Virus record (IMG/VR): IMGVR_UViG_3300013115_000501 | Location: 1-28,355 of that record | Length of the DNA: 28,355 nt | DNA from: a virus | Reading direction: 5' to 3' (one strand) | Shown here: piece by piece, positions 3,001-23,971 of the stretch | Numbering within the stretch: position 1 is the stretch's first letter | Layout: the number at the start of each line of letters is the position of its first letter | The notes under the pieces: model-generated | What the model saw: only the letters and a program-made list of their open reading frames with translations | Database searches by the model: none | What the model was told of the DNA's origin: nothing | Made by a program: the position numbers and the translations under genes

Positions 3001-6000
3001 GCGTTCCACCAAGGACGTGCAGCGGGTTATGGGGGGCACCGGGCAGTACGGCATGACCCAGCACGGTGGGCAAGAGCCGGGCATTGTGGCCGAGCTTTGG
3101 GGGTTCTCTTCTGCCGAGGCGATGATCCGCGCTCTCTACGACTCGAGTGGGATCGAGCAGGAGATCGAAGCGGAGACAGAGCGCAGACTACGGCAGGGCC
3201 AGGGCGATCCCTTGCGCGACGGGTCGATTCATGCCCGCGCCCAGGAGGCGATTGACGGGGACGCCAAGGCGAGTTTCCTGATGCGCCAGCTTTCTATCCT
3301 GGGGCACCGGGCGGGTATTGCGAAGAACCTGCCGCAGAAGGTGCTGAAGGACGCCGCCGAGCGAATCATTGACGGGAAGGCCATTCGGGACATCAGGCCC
3401 GGCCTGTACCGCGCCGCCGAGGCCAGGGCTTCCCAGGAGGTGCTCGATGCTGTGGCTGCCCAGGACTGGGCGGCAGCGCACGCGGCTGGCCGGCAGCAAC
3501 TCCTGAACCACTACCTGGCGAAGCAAGCCGAGGCCATGAAAGCCGAGAGCGAGAAGTGGCGACGGTTCTGGTCAGACTTCAACAAGAAGGCACTCCGCAA
3601 GCGGTTGGCCCAGACTGGCAGCGGATACCTCGAGGCTGCGGACTCACTTCTCGATCGGTTCGACATTCGCCAACTCTCGAACAAGCAGGCCAATATCAAC
3701 CTCGGTGAGTGGATGATGAGTATCCTCAGCAACGTCGATGCGTACAACAAGGCGCTAAACGGCGAGGACGGGAGCACGGGGACGATGCTCCCTGAGCCGC
3801 AGTTCGCCTTCAGGGAACTCGCCTTCGATACCGAGTACCGCAAGCACTGGCGGATGCTCACGGTGGCCGAGGCCAAAGAACTCACCGCTGCACTCTCCAA
3901 TATCAAGCACCTCGCGCTGCGAGAGTTGACGATCAAACTGGAGAACGAGGAGCGGGAGTTCCTGGCGGTTCGCAACGAAGCGACGGCGCAGATCACCAAG
4001 ACCCGCCGCAAGTTCAAGCCGCCGCCGATAGGCGCACGCAATGACCCGGCCCATACGCTCCACTCCTGGGCGGCAAACTATTTGGTGGATCACCGAAAGC
4101 CCACCTCTCTGCTCCACGAGATGGACGGCGGTTACGATGGGATAATGACCCGGCTCATTGTCCACCCGATGGACGCAAGCCACGCCAAGGAAGAGGCCAT
4201 GCTCCTCGACGCGGGGGAGAAACTCCAGGCCCTCTTCGCCCCCTATATCCGTAGCGGGTTCTTTGAACCAGACGCTTGGAAGCGGAGCCTCGACATGGGT
4301 GGGGTGGTGAGTCTGACAGCGAAGGCCCTGGACAAGAAGAGCCCACTGGCCCCGAGGATCACGGACAAGAAACTCGTGCCCGGCACGGCCAATATCGAAC
4401 TCTCCCATTTAGAGCGCATCATGGCAGTGATGAACATGGGCAACGCCGGGAACATGCAGAGGCTCGAGGATGGCTACCACTGGAACCGTGAAGAGATGCG
4501 GGCAATTCTGGCAACCATGCAGAAGCCCGATATGGATTTCATCCAGGGGGTTTGGGACTTCATCGAGACATACTGGGAAGAGATCGCCGCGATTGAGAAG
4601 CGGCGCACCGGGGTCAAGCCCGAGAAGGTCAAGGCCATCGAGATCCAGACCCCGTTTGGGACATACCGGGGCGGGTACTTCCCTGCCGTCTACGATGGGG
4701 ATCAGCTTGCGATTGCCACGACCAACACTGACACTTTTGAGGCTTACCAGGACTTCCTCGCCGCCCAAGGCAGAACGAAGACCCAGGACAGTTTCACGAA
4801 GGCCCGCGCTCGCAAGGTCAAGAACAGGCCCATGCGGCTTGATTTCGATGTGATCTTTCGGCATGTGGGGGATGTGATTCACCGGCTCTCGTTTGAGGAT
4901 TGGGCAGTCAATACCGGCAAGCTCTTGGCCGATCAGCATATGGCCCAGACGATCCTCGAGATGTATGGCCCCGAGGTATGGAGGGCCATCAAGGACTGGC
5001 ACGCCGATGTAGTCCGTGGCGAAGGGCAAGGGGTCACTACTGCGACGGAGAGGCTCTCGGGGTATTTCAGAACCGGCATGGCAGTGTCCTCAATGGGCAT
5101 GAACCTGGGCACGTCAATCCTCCAGCCCTGGGGATTGTTCAATGCGCTGAAGCCCTCCAATCTCGGGCCCAAGTGGGTCGCGAAGGGTTTTCAGAGTTGG
5201 TGGCGGGACTTCGATAGTGCGGAGGGGCAGGCTCACATGATTCGCACTATTCGCCATATCCGCGAGGTGTCTCCGACCATGCGGAACCGGCTCTCGGCTG
5301 CCGCCTCGAATACGCGGGAGATGCGGGAAGTGGCGAGCCAGTTGAACAAGGAGGGGGTTCTGGGCCCAGTGCGTAGCAAGTTCTTCCTGCCGATAATTAT
5401 GATGCAGGCGACGGTGGACATACCGATATGGCTTGGCGCATACGCGAAAGAGATGCAGACCGGGAGCGGCGAAGAGTCCAAGGCGATCGCGATGGCCGAC
5501 AGGATGGTCATCAATACCCAGGGCAGTGGCCGCATTGGCGACCTGTCAGGAGCCCAGCGTCAGCAAAAGGTTCTAACCCTGTTCATGTCATTTATGAATA
5601 CAGTGAACGACCAAGCCGCTCTGGACATCCGCTGGGCCAGGAGCGGAAACATCAACCCCATGAAGCTAGCCCTAGGACTGGCCTCGCTCTATATGCCATA
5701 CGTTTTTACGAAGATGATGCAGGACTTCCTACGCGACTCCTGGGACGAAGAGGAAGACGATCCGTGGCCTCTCTTTGCTCTAAAATACGGAGCGGGAGCA
5801 ATAGCGGGGGGGTATTTCGGTGGGTTCACAGTAATACGAGAAGGCACCGGGATGATCGAAGGGTTCGACTATCGAGGCCCAGCGGCTCTGGGCATCGTTC
5901 CCAAAACCGCCGCTGCCGTGAAGGTACTCCTGGACGAAGACCCGATCGATGATAGGGGAGTGACTTCGCTCATCATGGCGACCTCTGTAGTCGCCCGCGT

Positions 6001-15382: not shown

Positions 15383-16327
15383 TCAGCGGACGCTCAGCCG
15401 CCTAGCAAGCTCGCCAATAGCCGCCGCTGCCTGGAGAGGAACGACCGCATTCCCGAGGCACCTGAGCCTATCGTTGGCGTACTCCAGCCCGGTGGGAGTC
15501 CCATCAGAGCCTCGACGAAGGCCGGATTCAAGCGTTGGCGCGGGGCCTCCAGCGGCGAGCCACTCTCGCCAGCCGAGACTGTCGGCAGGCCCAGGCGGGA
15601 AGCCCTGACGGTCGCGTCCGTCAAGGTCACCCCCTCGCTCCGTCCGCTCTCCGTCGAGTACCCCGCTGACCCGCTCCCCACTGCGTCCTGGCTCGTGGGT
15701 GTCGGCCACTTGTCGGCCGCCGCTTGCAGGTCGCCCCCCCCGCTCTCTGTCCTGCCCAGTTCCTGCTTCCGCTCCGCGCTCTCCGCTCCCCCGGTGATCG
15801 TCCGAGGAGTCGGCCACGAAGAGCCCGAAGAATCGAGCCCTTCGGTGCGGGGCACCCACGGCGCTCGCGGGTATGCACAACCATTCGCTACGCCACCCGC
15901 CCGGCTCAATGTCCTCCAGTCCTCCGAGGATGCTGGGCAGTCCGTGAAGAGCGAAACCTGGGACGTTTTCCAGCACGAGGATGCGGGGTCGAATTTCATC
16001 GACCACCCGGAGGAGATCCTCTCCGAGCCATCTGTCATCTGCGAGCCCTTGACGCTGGCCTGCAACGCTGAACGGCTGGCAGGGGATTCCGCCAGCGATG
16101 CAATCCACTTTGCCGCGCCACGGCTTGCCGTCGAAGGTTGAGAGATCGTCCCAGATAGGCGCGCTATCCAGGGCCTGCTCTTCCATCCGCGCCACGAGAG
16201 TGGCCGCTGCGAAGCTTTCCCGCTCAACATGACAGACGGTGCGGTAGCCGGGCCACAGGATTCGGAGGCCAAGCTCGAGTCCTCCAATCCCGGAACAAAC
16301 AGCCAAGCCATTCACGCGAGTCTCCAT
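15383..16327 (-). CDS. DNA (cytosine-5) methyltransferase
   Basis: 314 residues, start at ATG 16327 (METRVNGLAVCSGIGG), overlapping the preceding winged-helix gene by 16 bases. The frame is open further upstream, but that part reads through other genes. C5-methylase motifs appear in order: I, SGIGGLELGL (12-21); IV, GIPCQPFS with the catalytic Cys83; VI, ENVPG (120-124); VIII, HRRARFFGL; and X, RLRCLGNAVVP near the C-terminus. The target-recognition region between VIII and X is short and repetitive, rich in Gly, Arg and Asp. It methylates cytosine in a DNA sequence that cannot be predicted, probably to protect phage DNA from host restriction. No partner restriction enzyme is seen. It is the last gene of the leftward operon. 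Confidence 0.93.
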   Translation of the reverse strand: METRVNGLAVCSGIGGLELGLRILWPGYRTVCHVERESFAAATLVARMEEQALDSAPIWDDLSTFDGKPWRGKVDCIAGGIPCQPFSVAGQRQGLADDRWLGEDLLRVVDEIRPRILVLENVPGFALHGLPSILGGLEDIEPGGWRSEWLCIPASAVGAPHRRARFFGLFVADSSDDHRGSGERGAEAGTGQDRERGGRPASGGRQVADTHEPGRSGERVSGVLDGERTERGGDLDGRDRQGFPPGPADSLGWREWLAAGGPAPTLESGLRRGSDGTPTGLEYANDRLRCLGNAVVPLQAAAAIGELARRLSVR

Positions 16328-16572
16328 GCCGTTGCCCGCTTCCCGGTCACGCTGCACTTCCGCGTGGTGGTGTCGCGCACCACGAACCCCATGCGCTCCA
16401 ATTCCGGCAACCTGCGCCACGCCTCCATGCCCAGGTGCGCCCCCAACTCGCGACCAGTGACTGGCCTCTTCGCCTCTCCCAGGCCCCTGAGTACTGCCCG
16501 GTGGAGTCTCCCCAGTTTGCCGCTGTCCTTCAGGGTCGCGAATGCTTCGGCGCTGGTGGAGGCGGAGGTCAT
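16312..16572 (-). CDS. Small winged-helix protein
   Basis: 86 residues from the ATG at 16572, which overlaps the previous TGA as ATGA; an upstream ATG at 16593 is less likely. The sequence LHRAVLRGLGEAKRPVTGRELGAHLGMEAWRRLPELERMGFVVRD reads as a winged helix-turn-helix: helix, helix, recognition helix, then a wing ending with ATAWRLA. It may bind DNA to regulate this operon, or assist the methyltransferase whose start it overlaps. Function is inferred from the fold only. Confidence 0.65.
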   Translation of the reverse strand: MTSASTSAEAFATLKDSGKLGRLHRAVLRGLGEAKRPVTGRELGAHLGMEAWRRLPELERMGFVVRDTTTRKCSVTGKRATAWRLA

Positions 16573-17357
16573 ACGCCGCACATCCCCTCGCATTCTTCCT
16601 CAAACATGTTGACCTGCCTAGTTTCATCCCAGTCCGGGTCATCAATGACCTCACGCAACGGGCGCAGGGACCGATGGACAAACTGCTCAGGGCCGATGGC
16701 CTCATCGACTTGGCAAGCATCCTCAAACGAGTCCGGGTCACGATCACGCATGGCAACCCATTCACGGTGTCCCTGGAAGGGGCAGAAGGTGCAAGCAGAG
16801 CGACCCGGCAGCGGGTGGCCGCGCCCCTCCATCCAGTCGAGGCAGTCGCCTCGGCGCATCGGAACGTCGTAGAGCAAGGGGAAACGGTTCTCGATCCATG
16901 AGTCTCTGGAAGGCTTTGCCCTCGTCGCCTCATCAACGGAAATGCCAACCCAGCACTCCACGCTGTACTTCCCTGCCGCGCGTTCTCCCCTGGAGAGTCC
17001 CAACTCGCGTCGAACTTCTTGCTTGCAGGCTTCTAGCTTAAACTGGCGGGTACACTGCCTCCGTCCAAGGGATTCGCGTCCATCTCGCTCAACCCAGAAT
17101 GGAACAGGAGTAAACCCTCCACGGACTGCCCGGTCGCGGAGATTGCCTTCGGTCGAAGTATGAATTGGGATAATGTGACCGAAGGTATCGATGAGCCATT
17201 TCAGATGCGTGTAAACGTGTTTCGGCTCGCTCTGCGTATCCGCGAAGACCGCGAAATCCGGCATGGGCGTAAGCTCTCCCTCCACCGCCATCAGATACAT
17301 CGCGGTTGACTGCACGCCTGCGCCCAGGCTTATGTAGCGGAGGTCGAAGTCAGCCAT
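16569..17357 (-). CDS. PAPS-reductase-like PP-loop ATP pyrophosphatase family protein
   Basis: 262 residues; start at ATG 17357, sharing one base with the upstream stop (TGATG). Near the N-terminus YISLGAGVQSTAM (8-20) is a PP-loop of the adenine-nucleotide alpha-hydrolase superfamily, followed by FAVFADTQSEPKHVYTHL, typical of PAPS reductase/CysH-like and DndC-related proteins. RRQCTRQFKLEACKQEVRREL and a later CTFCPFQGHREW add conserved cysteines that could bind an iron-sulfur cluster or zinc. Such phage proteins are common but their substrate is unknown. In this operon, next to a DNA methyltransferase, a role in nucleic-acid modification is possible; assimilation of sulfate is unlikely. 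No DndD/E or IscS partner is visible. Confidence 0.75.
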   Translation of the reverse strand: MADFDLRYISLGAGVQSTAMYLMAVEGELTPMPDFAVFADTQSEPKHVYTHLKWLIDTFGHIIPIHTSTEGNLRDRAVRGGFTPVPFWVERDGRESLGRRQCTRQFKLEACKQEVRRELGLSRGERAAGKYSVECWVGISVDEATRAKPSRDSWIENRFPLLYDVPMRRGDCLDWMEGRGHPLPGRSACTFCPFQGHREWVAMRDRDPDSFEDACQVDEAIGPEQFVHRSLRPLREVIDDPDWDETRQVNMFEEECEGMCGV

Positions 17358-17869
17358 CACTTGATGACCAGCCGTTCCTCTTGGACGAGGCGACAACCCT
17401 CAACTTCTTTCCCCGCTTTCAGGTCCGCCTTGATCGCGGCCTTGTCTGCTTCGATCTTCGGCGGGTGCTGATGCTCCGGCTTGAGTTGCCAGGGCTCCAC
17501 ATCGATTTCGACGCGGGGTGGCGTCTTGCGCCATGACACCGTGACGAGGTGATTCTTCACCGTTTCCCTGCCGACGATCCGTGGTGCGTGGCGAGCGAGG
17601 TATTCCTTCAACTTCTCGGCTTGCCGTTCGTGAAGGCGTTGCCGCTTGGTGAGCCGACCGACCTCTGCCTTGACCATCTCGGCCTCGCGCAGCAGTCCCT
17701 GCTGGAAAAGCGCAACGTCGAGGATCTTGTGGCGGCCCTGCTCAATGACATCATCGAGAAATTCCGCGAGCGACTCGTCTGTGATCTCGCCCGTTTCACG
17801 GTCGATCGCTGCGCTCATCGCCAATTCAACGTCATTGCCGTGCTCGTAGAGGCGTTTTGAGTCAGCCAT
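17357..17869 (-). CDS. Siphovirus Gp157-family protein
   Basis: 170 residues, ATG at 17869 overlapping the previous stop (TGATG). It has the usual layout: an acidic N-terminus with IDRETGEITDESLAEFLDDVIEQ, a long helix (EMVKAEVGRLTKRQRLHERQAEKLKEYLARH, residues about 65-95) and a C-terminal beta part (VSWRKTPPRVEIDVEPW). In streptococcal phages Gp157 members have been linked to phage resistance and often sit beside recombination genes, as here with an SSB-like and a Rad52-like gene. The molecular function is not established. Length fits the family. Confidence 0.8.
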   Translation of the reverse strand: MADSKRLYEHGNDVELAMSAAIDRETGEITDESLAEFLDDVIEQGRHKILDVALFQQGLLREAEMVKAEVGRLTKRQRLHERQAEKLKEYLARHAPRIVGRETVKNHLVTVSWRKTPPRVEIDVEPWQLKPEHQHPPKIEADKAAIKADLKAGKEVEGCRLVQEERLVIK

Positions 17870-18591: not shown

Positions 18592-18926
18592 CAGAACGGC
18601 ATCCCTTCTGCTTCGTCCTGGAAGGTGTCGCGATCCACGAGCGTCTGGATCTTCCGCAAGCTCAATGTGTTGAAGCATCGCGAGTCGCCGCTGGGGTTCT
18701 CCCATTTCCGACCGCCCAGGGCGTAGTGGGCCACCACCGGGTCGCCTGCCGAGAAGTCCTCGAGAACGTCGATCATCTCGAACGTGGCCTCCAAGCAGAT
18801 GAATTCAGGCCGCTCCCTTTCCGCGTTGAGGCAGAGCCAAAGCTCCCGCTTCTTGAAATCGTTCTTGAAGGTTTGGACGGGGCCAACGAAATCGACCAGT
18901 CCATCTACGCGTGTGAGTTCAGGCAT
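18591..18926 (-). CDS. DUF3127-like, probable OB-fold single-strand DNA-binding protein
   Basis: 111 residues, ATG at 18926 with AAGGAAG upstream. The pattern VDFVGPVQTFKNDFKKRELWLCL, then FICLEATFEMIDVLEDFSAGDPVVAHYALGGRKW, then CFNTLSLRKI fits DUF3127, a small OB-fold family related to single-strand binding proteins. The FxKRE motif is characteristic. It heads the recombination part of the leftward operon and is directly coupled to the annealing protein. It likely coats ssDNA during replication and recombination. No acidic C-terminal tip is clear beyond DEAEGMPF. Confidence 0.75.
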   Translation of the reverse strand: MPELTRVDGLVDFVGPVQTFKNDFKKRELWLCLNAERERPEFICLEATFEMIDVLEDFSAGDPVVAHYALGGRKWENPSGDSRCFNTLSLRKIQTLVDRDTFQDEAEGMPF

Positions 18927-18967
18927 GTTCTTCCTTTCGTGTGGCCCCCCCTCCCCAGCCAGTCCCC

Positions 18968-19006
18968 CCCGGCAAGGGGAGAGGGGGTGCCGGGAAAAAC
19001 CCCGGC
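18968..19006 (-). promoter_or_regulatory. Two mutually exclusive GC hairpins before the SSB-like gene
   Basis: Stem A: GCCGGG (18989-18994) pairs with CCCGGC (19001-19006) around a 6-base loop. Stem B: CCCGGCA (18968-18974) pairs with TGCCGGG (18988-18994) around a 13-base loop. Both use the segment 18989-18994, so only one can form. In the leftward transcript stem A comes first and begins at the stop codon of a 30-residue ORF. No U tract follows either stem. An attenuator or partial terminator is an inference. Confidence 0.5.
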
Positions 19007-19098
19007 TAGAGGGGGCAGGGAGCTAGGACGGCTGTCACTAGACCCGTAAGCAGGACGAGAAGCGCGGCCGTTGTAAATTCTCCGAGAGGGGTCAGCAT
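19006..19098 (-). CDS. Tiny single-membrane-span peptide (30 aa)
   Basis: ATG at 19098 shares one base with the upstream stop (TGATG), the same coupling style as other genes in this operon. The peptide begins MLTPLGEFTTAALLVLLTGL and continues VTAVLAPCPL; residues about 9-25 are hydrophobic enough for one membrane span. Its TAG at 19006-19008 lies at the foot of a GC hairpin. It may be a small membrane effector or a leader peptide controlling the genes downstream. No family is recognised. Confidence 0.45.
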   Translation of the reverse strand: MLTPLGEFTTAALLVLLTGLVTAVLAPCPL

Positions 19099-19421
19099 CA
19101 CTCGACCTCGCCTTGGAATGCGACGAGTTGAGTGCCGAATTTCTCTTCTGCTTTTTTGACTTTTCGGATCGCGGCATAGAGGTAGAGGGATGCAATTCCA
19201 ACCTCACCTTGGTTGATTGCCTCGATGCTGGAGGCAGCGGCCTCCCGCAGCGTGCGACATGCAGACACCAAGTTAAGTGCGTACTGTGCGCACCTCAGTT
19301 CGCCATGGTCTGGCCCGAGGACGCGGTCACAAATGGCGCAGTGGATTTCCGCGCATTCCGCTTCGTCATGAGCGTCCATGTCAACGATCCGATCACACGC
19401 GGGGCAGTAGCCAACCGGCAT
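19098..19421 (-). CDS. Zinc-ribbon-containing hypothetical protein (107 aa)
   Basis: ATG at 19421 overlaps the preceding TGA by one base. The N-terminal 45 residues contain two CxxC pairs (C6/C9 in YCPACDR and C28/C31 in HCAICDR) plus C23 and C44, so one or two zinc ribbons are likely. The C-terminal half is helical (SIEAINQGEVGIASLYLYAAIRKVKKAEEKF). It may bind nucleic acid or protein; nothing more specific can be said. It is part of the leftward early operon. Confidence 0.65.
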   Translation of the reverse strand: MPVGYCPACDRIVDMDAHDEAECAEIHCAICDRVLGPDHGELRCAQYALNLVSACRTLREAAASSIEAINQGEVGIASLYLYAAIRKVKKAEEKFGTQLVAFQGEVE

Positions 19422-20115: not shown

Positions 20116-20334
20116 ATGGCCCACCCCATTCAGACTTTTCTCGCCGACAAGCCCAAGCAGACCCAAGCGTCTCTGGCCCGCGACTTGGGCGTAGGTAGAG
20201 CGCACATCTCGGAGATTGTCTCAGGGCGCTCCAAGCCCTCCTGGGCGCTTGCCCAGCGACTGGTCAAACTCACCGGGGGCGAGATTTCCCTCGCCGCCCT
20301 GGCGAATTGGGAGCCCGAGGAGGCCACAGAATGA
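20116..20334 (+). CDS. Cro/CI-like helix-turn-helix regulator
   Basis: 72 residues. TQASLARDLGVGRAHISEIVSGRSKPSWALAQRLVKLTGG (about 16-55) is a typical lambda-repressor-like HTH: helix 2 SLARDLG, turn, recognition helix RAHISEIVSG. There is no C-terminal peptidase domain, so it is Cro-like in size rather than a LexA-type CI. It is divergent from the leftward operon and first in the rightward one, and likely binds the 17-bp palindrome 66 bases upstream of its start. Its stop overlaps the next ATG (ATGA). The translation start is probably leaderless. Confidence 0.85.
   Translation: MAHPIQTFLADKPKQTQASLARDLGVGRAHISEIVSGRSKPSWALAQRLVKLTGGEISLAALANWEPEEATE
20319..20334 (+). repeat. 16-bp direct repeat, copy 1, at a gene junction
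   Basis: GGAGGCCACAGAATGA covers the Shine-Dalgarno, stop and start of the regulator/76-aa junction. A perfect second copy is at 20546-20561, covering the next junction. Confidence 0.8.
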
Positions 20335-20561
20335 GCGAGGAGAAGCCTACGGTGGCACTCTACGAGGGCGACCCACAGGGTTCTGGGCTGCGGTTTCTGG
20401 GGCGCACGGACAACGCAAGGCTCGTACGGCTGGTGCGTGAGCGGATAGACAAGGACAAAGCCAAGCGAAAGAAGTGGATTGAGGAGTTGGAGGTGGCTAC
20501 CGGGATGACCATAGAGGAAGCCCGCGAATGGTGGCGGCGAAAGCCGGAGGCCACAGAATGA
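20331..20561 (+). CDS. Small hypothetical protein (76 aa)
   Basis: ATG at 20331 overlaps the regulator's stop, and its own stop overlaps the next start in the same way. The product is basic and helical (RLVRLVRERIDKDKAKRKKW, then ATGMTIEEAREWWRRK). A nucleic-acid-associated role is possible from charge only. Its last residues (EATE) and the underlying 16 bases repeat the end of the preceding gene, see the repeat entries. Confidence 0.6.
   Translation: MSEEKPTVALYEGDPQGSGLRFLGRTDNARLVRLVRERIDKDKAKRKKWIEELEVATGMTIEEAREWWRRKPEATE
20546..20561 (+). repeat. 16-bp direct repeat, copy 2, at a gene junction
   Basis: Perfect copy of the element at 20319-20334. It serves as the ribosome-binding and ATGA coupling site of the replication gene. 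The two copies bracket the 76-aa ORF exactly. Confidence 0.8.
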
Positions 20562-21346
20562 AGGGGCACGTTCGCATTCCGCACGACTGGATTCTCGCTC
20601 ATCGGGGGGATGGCCGGGTTCTCGGGCTGGTCACCCTGCTCGAGCATTACCGATTCACGGGGGAGAGTATCTCCGTCCGGCAGCTTGCCCATGACTGCCA
20701 CCTGGACAAAAGCACCGTCTCGAGGATCTCCCGAAAGTGGAGAAACCACCTATTGGAGGCCGAAAACGAGCGAATGGCCGCAAGTGAGACAGTTGTGAGA
20801 CAAGAGTGGGACAAAATCTCGCCGCAAGTTGCCGATACTGCTGATGATTCTGAAAGCGGTGAGACAGTGGTGAGACAAGAGACAGACAAAGGTGAGACAG
20901 CCTTCTATCTACCTAAAGAACAAGAACAAGAACAAACAAAAGAGATAGCCCCAGACGCGGAGCGCCTGACCCTTCTCTTCGCTGACACCTTGGCCTCCGC
21001 TGCTGAAGAGCATGGGATCTCCCGCCGCAAGCAGGCGCGGCCTCCGAAGGCTTGGTTTGTCGAGATGGATCGTCTGTTGAGGCTGGACGGCATCCCGCCC
21101 GAGGTGGTGGAGTCGGTGCTGCTCTGGGCTCTGACCGAGAGCGACTTCTGGGGGACGGGTTGCGGCCAGGGCGTGCTTCAGAGCGTGCCGAAGCTGCGGA
21201 AGCATTGGGACATCATCGCGTCCCAGCGGGCGGAAGCGCAGCCAAGAGAGAGGTTTGACGTTGCCAAGCGCGTGCTGGCAGCCAGCGAGGGGGGGAAACG
21301 TGGACACCGAAGAGAAAGCGTTGCGCTTAGGTTGCTTAGAGAATAA
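20558..21346 (+). CDS. Phage replication initiator (O-like / replisome organiser)
   Basis: 262 residues from ATG 20558 (ATGA overlap; an upstream start at 20528 is less likely). Residues about 3-75 form a winged-helix domain (GRVLGLVTLLEHYRFTGESISVRQLAHDCHLDKSTVSRISRKW). The centre, residues 76-130, is low-complexity and encoded by an 11-bp iteron array. The C-terminal part (PPKAWFVEMDRLLRLDGIPPEVVESVLLWALTESDFWGTG, then LRKHWDIIASQ) resembles the C-terminal domain of phage replisome organisers and DnaD/DnaT-like proteins that contact the helicase loader. Iterons inside the initiator gene are the arrangement seen in lambda O. No phage polymerase is seen here, so host replication proteins are presumably recruited. 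Confidence 0.75.
   Translation: MKGHVRIPHDWILAHRGDGRVLGLVTLLEHYRFTGESISVRQLAHDCHLDKSTVSRISRKWRNHLLEAENERMAASETVVRQEWDKISPQVADTADDSESGETVVRQETDKGETAFYLPKEQEQEQTKEIAPDAERLTLLFADTLASAAEEHGISRRKQARPPKAWFVEMDRLLRLDGIPPEVVESVLLWALTESDFWGTGCGQGVLQSVPKLRKHWDIIASQRAEAQPRERFDVAKRVLAASEGGKRGHRRESVALRLLRE
20784..20945. other. Candidate replication origin: 11-bp iterons plus A-rich tract
   Basis: GTGAGACA recurs at 20784, 20795, 20859, 20870 and 20892, with degenerate copies at 20806 (GTGGGACA) and 20881 (GACAGACA). Within each of two clusters the spacing is exactly 11 bp, one helical turn. Since 11 is not a multiple of 3 the repeat passes through different reading frames, so selection acts on DNA, not on protein. 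An A-rich, G/C-poor run at about 20902-20945 (AAAGAACAAGAACAAGAAC and onwards) follows directly and could be the unwinding element. It lies inside the initiator gene. Confidence 0.7.
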
Positions 21347-21680
21347 CTGGCTGGCCTTCGGGCGCGAGATCAGCCCGGAAACGCTGCGCCTCCAGGCCAA
21401 TCTCACGAAGCGGATTCCCGTCGAGATATTCCGGGCAGCCTGCGAGCGGGCTTGTCTGCTGACGAAGGGGGGGTTTCCACCAGGGCCGGGGGACATTCTG
21501 GAGGCGGCGAGGTGCATCGCTCCGGGCGAAACCGTGCCCGGCCAGGAGAAGGCTACGCCCCGCTGGTGGCGGATTGCCGTCCGCGAAGTGCAGGGCAGGG
21601 TGGACGAGCGGCCCCAACTCCGAGGGCCACGGGGTGGCGAGGCGAGTTTTCTGAGCATTGCAAAGGGGGTAGGGGAATGA
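21300..21680 (+). CDS. Hypothetical protein, possible helicase-loader-like partner (126 aa)
   Basis: Start at GTG 21300, with GAGGGGGG 6-12 bases upstream, inside the end of the initiator gene (47-base overlap); an ATG-like start at 21255 would overlap more. The protein has LGCLENNWLAFGREISPETLRL and IPVEIFRAACERACLL, then a GGFPPGPGDILEAARC segment. I do not recognise a named family with certainty. The position directly after an initiator is where phage helicase loaders (lambda P-type) occur, so that role is suggested by context only. No Walker motif is present. Its 3' end carries the first copy of an 18-bp repeat. Confidence 0.55.
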   Translation: MDTEEKALRLGCLENNWLAFGREISPETLRLQANLTKRIPVEIFRAACERACLLTKGGFPPGPGDILEAARCIAPGETVPGQEKATPRWWRIAVREVQGRVDERPQLRGPRGGEASFLSIAKGVGE

Positions 21681-21682
21681 CC
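21665..21682 (+). repeat. 18-bp direct repeat, left copy, at queC start
   Basis: GGGGGTAGGGGAATGACC, identical to 23600-23617. It contains the ribosome-binding purines, the upstream gene's stop and the queC ATG. The two copies bound the queC-queE-dpdA genes exactly. Confidence 0.85.
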
Positions 21683-22312
21683 GAAGAGAAAATCGGGCCG
21701 ATCCGAAAGGTCTTGCTGCTTTCGGGGGGCGTCGATTCAGCATTCCTCCTGAGCAAGTCGAGACTGGGCGAACTGCCCGCGTCAAAGGGGATGCTGTGCC
21801 CGGTTTTCGTTGGGTATGGGCAACCGTCTGAGAAGTCGGAATGGCTGGCCGCGCAAGCGTTGGCCGAGGCGATGAGGGTGCCGATCCTTCGCATCGACGT
21901 TTCGGGGATCGACCTGGGGGACATGGGATGGGGTGTGGACGCGAGAATCGTCCCCGCAAGGAATATGTGGCTGATCGCCTTGGCCGCATCTTGCGTTCCC
22001 GCCGCAAAGGGCGACGTGCCGCAGCTTGGCTTTTCCGAGAACGAGGTGTGGATCGGAGCCGCCCCCCAAGATCATCAGGACTATCCAGATTGCCGCGAAG
22101 GTTTCCTCTCGGCGATGCGCGTGGCGGCGCTTCGGATTGGCGTGGATCTCCGCTGGTCAGACGCCAGCCGGGAGGAACGGGTCGAACATCTGCGAGAGCA
22201 GAATCTCCTCAATCTGACGCATTCGTGCTACTGCAACGTGCCGTGTGGAGACTGCCCGTCCTGCTTGCAGGACAGCGTGGAACTCGACCCGGCGACATGG
22301 TTGCCAAGATGA
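21677..22312 (+). CDS. queC: 7-cyano-7-deazaguanine (preQ0) synthase QueC
   Basis: 211 residues, ATG at 21677 overlapping the previous stop. The PP-loop LLLSGGVDSAF has S16-G-G-V-D-S21. VPARNMWLIALAAS and DYPDCREGFL are QueC signatures (VPxRN and YPDCR). The C-terminal C184-x-C186-x3-C190-x2-C193-x2-C196 cluster is the zinc site. The enzyme converts 7-carboxy-7-deazaguanine plus ammonia and ATP to preQ0. No glutamine amidotransferase (Gat) extension is present, so the expected base is preQ0 rather than the amidated form. It is followed, with a 4-base overlap, by QueE, its upstream pathway enzyme, and then by a DpdA-like transglycosylase, indicating use in phage DNA rather than tRNA. QueD and FolE are not in the window. 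Confidence 0.93.
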   Translation: MTEEKIGPIRKVLLLSGGVDSAFLLSKSRLGELPASKGMLCPVFVGYGQPSEKSEWLAAQALAEAMRVPILRIDVSGIDLGDMGWGVDARIVPARNMWLIALAASCVPAAKGDVPQLGFSENEVWIGAAPQDHQDYPDCREGFLSAMRVAALRIGVDLRWSDASREERVEHLREQNLLNLTHSCYCNVPCGDCPSCLQDSVELDPATWLPR

Positions 22313-22899
22313 AATTGGCGTGGCCTCCGTTCTGGACGATCCAAGGCGAGGGGCACCTGACCGGGCAGGGGATGGTGTTCTTGCGTTTCGCCGGTTGCTC
22401 AGTTGGGTGCCCTGGGTGCGACACGAACTACTCTGCGAAAACGCGGATGAGTCCCGAGGAAATAACCGAGAGCGTTCTCGCTGAGTTTCCACGCGAAATC
22501 CACGGCAGGAATCGCTGGGTCTGGCTGACGGGCGGGGAACCGACCGACCGCAATCTTGACCCCTTGCTGAAACTGTTCTCGGAGGCTGGTCTGAGCGTGG
22601 CACTCGCCACCTCTGGGGTGCGGCCGGTGAGGAACCCCGTCGATTGGCTGAGCGTGAGCCCTCACACCACGGAGTTGGCCCAGACATGGGGGAACGAGAT
22701 CAAGCTCGTGCCGGGCCTGAACGGGCTCGACCCGTGGAGTTGGCTGGAGGAGTGGGACTCGAAACTGAATTTCTGGCTCCGCTTCTTCCAGCCGCTCGAC
22801 GGTGACCCGGACTCCCTGGAGGTGTGCAAAGAAATTTTTAAAGCCTATCCGCACTGGGGGATCAGCCTCCAGACTCACAAGTTGATGGGGTTGCCCTGA
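22309..22899 (+). CDS. queE: 7-carboxy-7-deazaguanine synthase QueE (radical SAM)
   Basis: 196 residues from ATG 22309, chosen for its ATGA overlap with queC; ATG 22297 is an alternative. FWTIQGEGHLTGQ is the classic QueE start. GCSVGCPGCDT places C30, C34 and C37 as the CxxxCxxC ligands of the 4Fe-4S cluster. WLTGGEPT is the radical-SAM GGEP motif, and LQTHKLMGLP is the usual C-terminal end of the family. It makes 7-carboxy-7-deazaguanine from 6-carboxytetrahydropterin, which the host would have to supply. It feeds QueC directly. Confidence 0.92.
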   Translation: MKLAWPPFWTIQGEGHLTGQGMVFLRFAGCSVGCPGCDTNYSAKTRMSPEEITESVLAEFPREIHGRNRWVWLTGGEPTDRNLDPLLKLFSEAGLSVALATSGVRPVRNPVDWLSVSPHTTELAQTWGNEIKLVPGLNGLDPWSWLEEWDSKLNFWLRFFQPLDGDPDSLEVCKEIFKAYPHWGISLQTHKLMGLP

Positions 22900-23615
22900 T
22901 GCTCCGCGTTTACCTTGCATCCCCGGACAACCAACTCCAGGCCAATGCGGCCAGGGAGCAACCCGTGCTGCTCTCGTTTGCGCTTGCGTCCAAGAAGCCG
23001 TTTCTGGAAAAGGGATACCTCGCTTCCTTTGGCAGGGTGCTTTGTGATTCTGGAGCGTTCTCGGCCCACAACTCCGGGGCAGTGATCGACCCCGTAGCTT
23101 ACCGTGCCTGGGCGGAAAGCATCCCATGGGCAGACAACTGGGCGGCGCTGGACAGCATCGCGGGCGACTGGCGCGAGGGCATGAAGAACGCGGAGGCGTT
23201 TGGGTTTCCGACGTTCCACGATTCTGATCCCGATGACACGCTGGAGCCGCTGATCCAAATCTCAAGGGAGCGCGGCAACTGGTTGGGGATTGGTCTACTC
23301 CCACCGCGCACGGGCAGAGGCGACTGGTTGGCGCGCACGCTTGACCGCATTCCCGAGGATATCCATGTCCACGGCTGGGCGCTGGGGGGGTACGCGCTGA
23401 CCCATCACCGAATCAACTCGTTCGACTCAACTCACTGGTGGCGGGATGGGCAGAAATTGCGGCAGCGGATGCCCTGGCTCACCTATGGAGAAACGCTGGA
23501 AATCATGGTGAAGAAGATGCAGCGGATGCGGAGAACGAGCGTGGAAACGGTGGGCCAGGAGGAGATGTTTTCGGGCGCGACGGTTCTGGAGATCGCGGAG
23601 GGGGTAGGGGAATGA
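22899..23615 (+). CDS. DpdA-like DNA guanine transglycosylase
   Basis: 238 residues; ATG shares one base with the queE stop. It has tRNA-guanine-transglycosylase-like features seen in phage DpdA: LCDSGAFSAH with D50 as a likely catalytic aspartate, a LLPP segment near 133-136, and HVHGWALGGYAL followed by SFDSTHW with D176, the second aspartate region. It lacks the C-terminal zinc site of tRNA TGT. DpdA enzymes swap guanine in DNA for preQ0-type bases. Placement directly after QueC and QueE makes preQ0 insertion into phage DNA the likely role. The protein is short for the family and ends in a tail (VLEIAEGVGE) encoded over an 18-bp repeat and resembling the end of the gene before queC (LSIAKGVGE). 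Confidence 0.8.
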   Translation: MLRVYLASPDNQLQANAAREQPVLLSFALASKKPFLEKGYLASFGRVLCDSGAFSAHNSGAVIDPVAYRAWAESIPWADNWAALDSIAGDWREGMKNAEAFGFPTFHDSDPDDTLEPLIQISRERGNWLGIGLLPPRTGRGDWLARTLDRIPEDIHVHGWALGGYALTHHRINSFDSTHWWRDGQKLRQRMPWLTYGETLEIMVKKMQRMRRTSVETVGQEEMFSGATVLEIAEGVGE

Positions 23616-23617
23616 CC
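23600..23617 (+). repeat. 18-bp direct repeat, right copy, at rusA start
   Basis: Perfect copy of 21665-21682. It covers the dpdA-like stop and the ATG of the RusA-like gene. A shorter relative, GGGTAGGGGAA, occurs once more near 24035, inside the next ORF. Confidence 0.85.
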
Positions 23618-23971
23618 TACGCGCTGAAGCTCGAGATTCCGGGGCTGCCGCCGTGCAACACCGCGTCGAATAACCACTGGCGCGTGAGGGCGAGGCATAA
23701 CCGCAAGTGGCAGCACGACACGATCGTGGCCGCCAAGGCCCAGGGATTGCCCTCGGAACCCCTGTGGAAGGCCAAGGTGACGTGCACCCGGCACTCGAGC
23801 AGGGAGCCAGACTTCGAGAACTTGGCTCACAGCTTCAAGCCAGTGCTGGATGGCTTGGTGACGGGTGGGGTGCTCGTTGACGATAACCAGGCTGTGATCG
23901 GCCAACCGGACTATCGGTGGGAACGTGCCGCCCCAAAATCAGGGCGCATTACCGTGGAGGTGGTGGGGTGA
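23612..23971 (+). CDS. RusA-like Holliday junction resolvase
   Basis: 119 residues, ATG 23612 overlapping the previous stop (ATGA). The fold pattern matches RusA: PPCNTASNNHWRVRARHNRKW at the start, then P66-D67-F-E69-N in PDFENLAHSFKPVLDGL with K76 and D80, and VLVDDNQAVIG with D90/D91. RusA uses three or four acidic residues and a lysine of this kind to cut Holliday junctions. It probably resolves recombination intermediates before packaging. Downstream genes of the operon are small and unknown. The family call is firm. Confidence 0.88.
   Translation: MTYALKLEIPGLPPCNTASNNHWRVRARHNRKWQHDTIVAAKAQGLPSEPLWKAKVTCTRHSSREPDFENLAHSFKPVLDGLVTGGVLVDDNQAVIGQPDYRWERAAPKSGRITVEVVG

Follow-up and report, generated by a model that had tools for sequence, protein, structure and literature searches.

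Illegitimate exchange at gene boundaries has been stated as a general idea, and in Island3 gp68 ends in a copy of the gp67 end, of which Brujita has one copy (PMC3029335). When re-measured, the Island3 gp67/gp68 repeat spans 65 bp (88%), and Brujita matches that stretch in two pieces. Short conserved boundary sequences of phages, as they are cited in PMC3029335, likewise place a short shared sequence at module boundaries and are proposed to be common to phages, whereas in the loci described here each phage has its own repeat. The start-associated sequences of Cluster K mycobacteriophages (PMC3203893) are, as here, repeats over the RBS beside start codons, but they follow one consensus at many genes, whereas our repeat has two copies around one module. 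Phage systems for 7-deazaguanine modification comprise FolE, QueD, QueE, QueC and DpdA, and such DNA modifications have been linked to protection from restriction (PMC6884629). An old question, to which the present loci speak, is how mosaic phage genomes can form at gene boundaries and leave coupled neighbours unharmed. T4-type mobile regulatory cassettes (PeSL; Arbiol 2010, as cited in PMC4503421) are said to be promoter-terminator elements; the likeness lies in gene modules being shuffled with regulatory sequence at their edges, whereas here the start signals lie inside coding ends.

The window analysed here is the whole of IMG/VR record IMGVR_UViG_3300013115_000501 (28,355 bp, possibly a fragment), and phage loci compared with it carry L-numbers (L006, L007, L012 and so on). 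It shares with the published 7-deazaguanine systems a QueE, a QueC and a DpdA-like protein encoded together, and differs from them in that the record is without FolE or QueD and the DpdA is short. As in Island3, the last gene of the insert ends in a copy of the 3′ end of the gene upstream. A cassette-free relative with one copy, the counterpart of Brujita, was found for the homologous cassette of L052 (in L038) and not for the window. The Island3 insert is one orphan gene, whereas the window has a three-gene base-modification module whose copied end also carries the SD and start of the next gene. The loci are a variant of the published precedent: a multi-gene modification module, with a copied end that includes a coupled start signal, recurring independently. 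We regard the repeat as probably an insertion scar, that is, a duplicated up126 end with its start signal, produced by low-homology entry of the module between up126 and rusA.

Setting and structure of the repeat

The window terminase is 51% identical to that of the Burkholderia phage BcepC6B. The local operon runs HTH gene, 76-aa gene, DnaD-like gene, up126, queC, queE, dpdA-like gene, rusA, 105-aa gene, 72-aa gene, terS and terL, with stops and starts overlapping at most junctions (Table 1). No match to up126 turned up in bacterial genomes, and DNA and protein searches among isolated phages gave none to the locus, to dpdA or to up126.

Table 1. Features of the operon and of its start-site repeats, in window coordinates
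Feature	Position	Strand	Remarks
Second start-site repeat GGAGGCCACAGAATGA, left copy, over the start of the 76-aa gene	20319..20334	+	
Second start-site repeat, right copy, over the start of the DnaD-like gene	20546..20561	+	
up126, 126-aa gene preceding the cassette; donor-type gene for the copied 3′ end	21300..21680	+	coding; homologues 85.7% (L007) and 48% (L012), both before a variable interval
Left 41-bp repeat copy: up126 C-terminal codons, SD, ATGA overlap with queC	21642..21682	+	last 19 bp identical to right copy
queC, 7-cyano-7-deazaguanine synthase-like	21677..22312	+	PF06508, 2e-16; SGGVDS and C-x5-C-x2-C-x2-C motifs
queE, 7-carboxy-7-deazaguanine synthase-like radical SAM	22309..22899	+	phrog_2076, 1.8e-22; CSVGCPGC cluster motif
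dpdA-like DNA guanine transglycosylase	22899..23615	+	phrog_887, 2.9e-11
Right repeat copy: up126-type 3′ end joined in frame onto dpdA, with the SD of rusA and the dpdA/rusA ATGA overlap	23573..23617	+	match to L007
rusA-like gene (Holliday-junction resolvase) following the cassette	23612..23971	+	phrog_34, 6.2e-12; identity 82% (L007), 73% (L010)

The 18-bp sequence GGGGGTAGGGGAATGACC occurs in exact copies at 21665-21682 and 23600-23617. The left copy spans the ATGA stop/start overlap of up126 and queC (ATG at 21677) and the right copy that of dpdA and rusA (ATG at 23612), and the upstream half of both is read in frame, giving a shared protein tail. An earlier, sequence-only reading of this DNA had reported the 18-mer over the queC and rusA starts, a tail (IAKGVGE / IAEGVGE) common to the proteins that end at the copies, and an interval holding queC, queE and a dpdA-like gene only; all three hold, the last through family matches. 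It had also foreseen clean loss between the copies, and in silico deletion indeed keeps up126 and rusA intact and ATGA-coupled. The length of 18 bp was right for the exact copy that it reported but falls short as the full extent: identity reaches 19 bp once the A at 21664 and 23599 is counted, and ungapped extension gives 41 bp at 78% identity (21642-21682 versus 23577-23617). The 9 mismatches between the 41-bp copies all lie within the first 22 bp, a clustering with a chance of 0.0014. Misassembly was judged an unlikely source of the repeat, because 19 bp is shorter than usual assembly k-mers.

The two copies could in principle be a convergent ribosome-binding/start sequence and nothing else, given that the same 18-mer and close variants stand at ATGA junctions of unrelated phages. 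An exact scan of IMG/VR for the 18-mer returned one further match, at an ATGA gene junction in the unrelated phage contig L028, which by our estimate is about chance level for a collection of that size. Convergence is nevertheless very hard to credit: the in-frame similarity reaches 22 bp upstream of the 19-bp core, the match of the right copy to the L007 up126 end (below) is far above shuffles and contradicts it, and the record has two sites only. No third site for GGGGGTAGGGGAATGACC was found in the window at up to 3 mismatches (0.05 expected by chance), and no consensus before many genes of the start-associated kind appeared (two sites in the record at up to 2 mismatches). Nor is the repeat the generic ribosome-binding sequence scattered through the genome that had been named as the case against the sequence-only reading. 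The repeat is more than a ribosome-binding sequence.

Genes of the cassette

The cassette encodes a QueC-like ATPase, a QueE-like radical SAM protein and a DpdA/TGT-type transglycosylase. The match of QueC to PF06508 is above the 22-bit cut-off and below the NCBIfam equivalog cut-off, and QueE matches NCBIfam TIGR04508 at 9e-28, below the curated cut-off. The DpdA-like protein has no match in Pfam, and its fold search was weak, with archaeosine TGT 1j2b second (E 1.5e-3) among other TIM barrels. Its residues D50 (DSGAF) and D176 (FDST), which we take to be the TGT catalytic residues, are invariant in 11 sequences. The record, possibly a fragment, contains neither FolE (PF01227) nor QueD (PF01242), so the module is not placed in the complete-pathway group. 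A QueE, a QueC and a TGT-like protein without FolE and QueD suggest that a host precursor is used for preQ0, and the protein families suggest that preQ0 or a derivative is put into the phage DNA against restriction. With a C5-cytosine methylase gene (15383-16357, minus strand) and a PAPS-reductase/SspD-like gene (16569-17360, minus strand), the window phage has further genes of DNA-modification type; by eye, a homologue of the latter appears downstream of rusA in L010.

A tblastn search with the window DpdA against 50,697 phage records gave no match, and a scan for close relatives of dpdA found none. The DpdA-like proteins of L116-L125 and the window make up a clade of short members, natively about 225 aa long, that is seen in uncultivated phages. 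Ends of the type Qxx(L/M/I)(F/W) (QEEMF, QISLF, QNILF), which resemble sliding-clamp binding motifs, occur in the window (about 23545-23570) and in L119, L120 and L123; in the C-terminal region the pattern is present in 4 of 11 DpdAs, versus 0.6% of 1742 proteins.

The up126-rusA interval in relatives

Relatives with up126 and rusA were retrieved through terminase-based searches. In L007, the closest informative relative, the interval holds a 358-aa gene, whose product has an MT-A70 methylase domain (PF05063, 6e-25) and a weakly ParB-like N-terminus, together with a 179-aa gene without family matches; L006 has the same 179-aa gene and rusA. The more distant L012 has 90 bp between up126 and rusA, with only a 29-codon ORF (read by eye), and L010 shows yet another gene end before rusA, at the contig edge. 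These differing contents make the up126-rusA address variable, and two of them are DNA-modification modules: here an MT-A70-type methylase gene can stand in place of the 7-deazaguanine module.

The boundaries of the L007 module are the up126 ATGA and the rusA GTGA, and no flanking repeat surrounds it. The expectation that relatives would carry a different modification module between two copies was borne out as to the module and its place, and failed as to the copies. The other expected arrangement, the 126-aa gene joined directly to rusA with one copy, did not turn up: a degenerate scan for the one-copy (empty-site) pattern returned only three unrelated ATGA junctions and no one-copy window junction. 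Since no cassette-free version of the window was found, we infer its insertion event.

The C-terminal tail of dpdA

The up126 end in L007 reads GGGCGCGACGGTTCTGGAGATTGCAAAGGAGGTGGGGGAATGA, and the end of the window dpdA agrees with it at 38 of 43 bases, including 24 of the 27 upstream of the 18-mer. This is the best match to the dpdA end in all loci, and none of 100 shuffles exceeds 27/43 and 20/27. In the window up126 itself the last codons match L007 at 11/21, between flanking segments at 20/21 and 19/21. The ten dpdA homologues compared, all of other phages and 43-53% identical, align only as far as residue 209-225, none of the ten carries an up126-type tail, and in the AlphaFold model of the dpdA product residues 220-238 have pLDDT below 50. 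Together, the L007 match, the homologues without a tail and the low pLDDT indicate that dpdA ends in a grafted up126 tail. The native part of dpdA ends near residue 225 and the remainder is derived from up126; the tail, of about 13 residues, is predicted to be unstructured. The graft also brings the SD and start overlap for rusA.

A stretch of 19 identical bp next to 22 upstream bases of which 9 differ is not expected from a single recent duplication unaided; mismatches clustered in this way would result if conversion followed, or if two up126 alleles recombined. The clustering is one reason to consider a two-step assembly, in which two phages with different up126 alleles recombined and there was no single insertion event: the donor's up126 end, already followed by queC, became the left copy, and that of the recipient became the right copy. 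The divergent tail of the window up126 between well-matched flanks, with the L007-type tail found on dpdA, points the same way. We hold this assembly to be improbable, because the 19-bp core would have to match in both alleles, yet L007 differs there, and the donor phage was not found.

Filled and empty sites in other phages

Homologous cassettes vary in gene order: queC-dpdA in L116, L117 (which is L046) and L118 (which is L052), dpdA-queE in L121, and queE-queC-dpdA in L122. In L119, L120 and L123-L125, dpdA was found with neither queC nor queE adjoining. L116 and L046 are homologous from the TG in the start codon of queC onwards, and L124 and L125 part at the dpdA end, about the stop codon. 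Taken together, the loci show that in uncultivated phages the genes for 7-deazaguanine modification travel as a small unit.

Two filled/empty pairs leave readable scars, one with and one without start-site duplication. L046 and L050 share 93-97% DNA identity over most of their shared length, and L046 has a 1,250-bp queC-dpdA insert where L050 has about 2 bp, with no target duplication. The insert sits at the 3′ terminus of a cytosine methylase gene, and the last residues of the methylase are changed; the next gene lies on the opposite strand, so there was no start signal to preserve. When the flanks of the L052 cassette are aligned to L038, they overlap by 12 bp at GGGGAAG(C/T)ATGA: the cassette-free L038 has one RBS-start, L052 has one on each side of its cassette, and it is the second copy that supplies the final codons (KGEA stop) of the L052 dpdA. 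The one-copy empty, two-copy filled pattern that the sequence-only reading predicted is seen in these relatives. In L037 a different gene follows the same AGGGGGAAGCATGA as in L052 and L038. The L121 cassette has a 19-bp repeat, GAAGGGGGAGACGACGTGA, over both starts, with two exact copies only in its record; a search by flanks for an empty relative of L121 found none. Duplication on insertion is not obligatory, as L046 and L007 demonstrate.

These loci bear on whether the repeat is a true exchange site, where recombination of homologous or annealing type between the copies brings modules in and takes them out. Such a site would account for a clean loss that keeps both neighbours intact, for different sequences after one RBS-ATGA in L052, L038 and L037, and for the other modification module at the same place in L007. 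It is unlikely all the same. The L007 module has no flanking repeat, L046 and L050 differ by a cassette and have no repeats, and the one-copy window junction was not found in the degenerate pattern scan. Each phage has its own repeat, so the copies could not pair between phages, and 13-19 bp is short for general recombination. The earlier proposal of a swappable cassette that uses the start region as exchange site therefore divides: a movable unit is upheld by L007, L012 and L052/L038, and the need for a repeat in the exchange is contradicted by L046/L050 and L007.

Proposed formation of an insertion scar

For the preferred reading, an insertion scar, we propose that the queC-queE-dpdA module entered between the coupled up126 and rusA through recombination that needs little if any sequence homology. 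In such ATGA-coupled operons the SD of the downstream gene sits within the last codons of the upstream gene, so that a viable insertion would often duplicate that end. One segment would have been kept twice, once finishing up126 and starting queC and once before rusA, and the second copy would have joined the dpdA end in frame, supplying a stop codon and a 13-residue up126-type tail. Surviving products would be those with up126 complete and an SD for both the incoming and the downstream gene; the scar would mark an insertion that passed selection for functional start signals. This reading explains directly when duplication would be required, namely when the SD of the next gene lies inside the upstream coding end. 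The repeat may also offer a route of clean cassette loss. The repeat sequence differs from phage to phage and belongs to the local host operon, which argues against an exchange signal borne by the cassette. Calculated anti-SD duplexes are strong at both window starts (−12.0 and −12.5 kcal/mol) and at both L121 junctions (−10.8 kcal/mol); that of the L007 rusA, whose SD is not duplicated, is weak (−4.1 kcal/mol).

Start-to-start repeats around other gene blocks

The control set comprised 3,303 blocks of genes on one strand, each 550-2,500 bp long, from 101 loci, with genes from a codon-scored caller; the window block is outside this count, as the caller did not call the window rusA. Start-to-start exact repeats of at least 13 bp flank 7 of the 3,303 blocks, two of which are the L121 and L052 cassettes. 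Such repeats occur in 3 of 10 cassettes with the window included (Fisher 1.1e-6) and in 2 of 9 without it (1.4e-4), p-values that are indicative because the threshold of at least 13 bp was picked after seeing the data and cassettes are few. Further blocks with long repeats, in L102, L128 and L037, suggest that the architecture is not confined to base-modification genes. Small gene blocks with repeats of 18-44 bp over the RBS/start lie in L128 (about 3907-4612), L102 (about 18679-19384, reverse-strand coordinates) and L037/L038; in L128 the 44-bp repeat continues promoter-like sequence.

A wider reading, possible but offered tentatively, is that the SD-stop-start overlap might be a general landing address for new genes that insertion duplicates, base-modification modules reusing this route and sometimes grafting foreign C-terminal codons. 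If so, a newcomer would inherit the resident's start signal and the resident would keep its own.

The window operon has a further start-site repeat, of 16 bp, around the 76-aa gene. L007 is without this gene, its HTH gene joining the DnaD-like gene at ATGAGCGAGGAGAAGC, which in the window is the start of the 76-aa gene; the 16-bp repeat appears to be a second, independent insertion scar. MSEEK opens both the product of the 76-aa gene and the DnaD-like protein of L007. Iteron-like 11-bp direct repeats, a possible origin of replication, lie within the DnaD-like gene (window 20784-20901, L007 3641-3770), and their unit differs between the window and L007.
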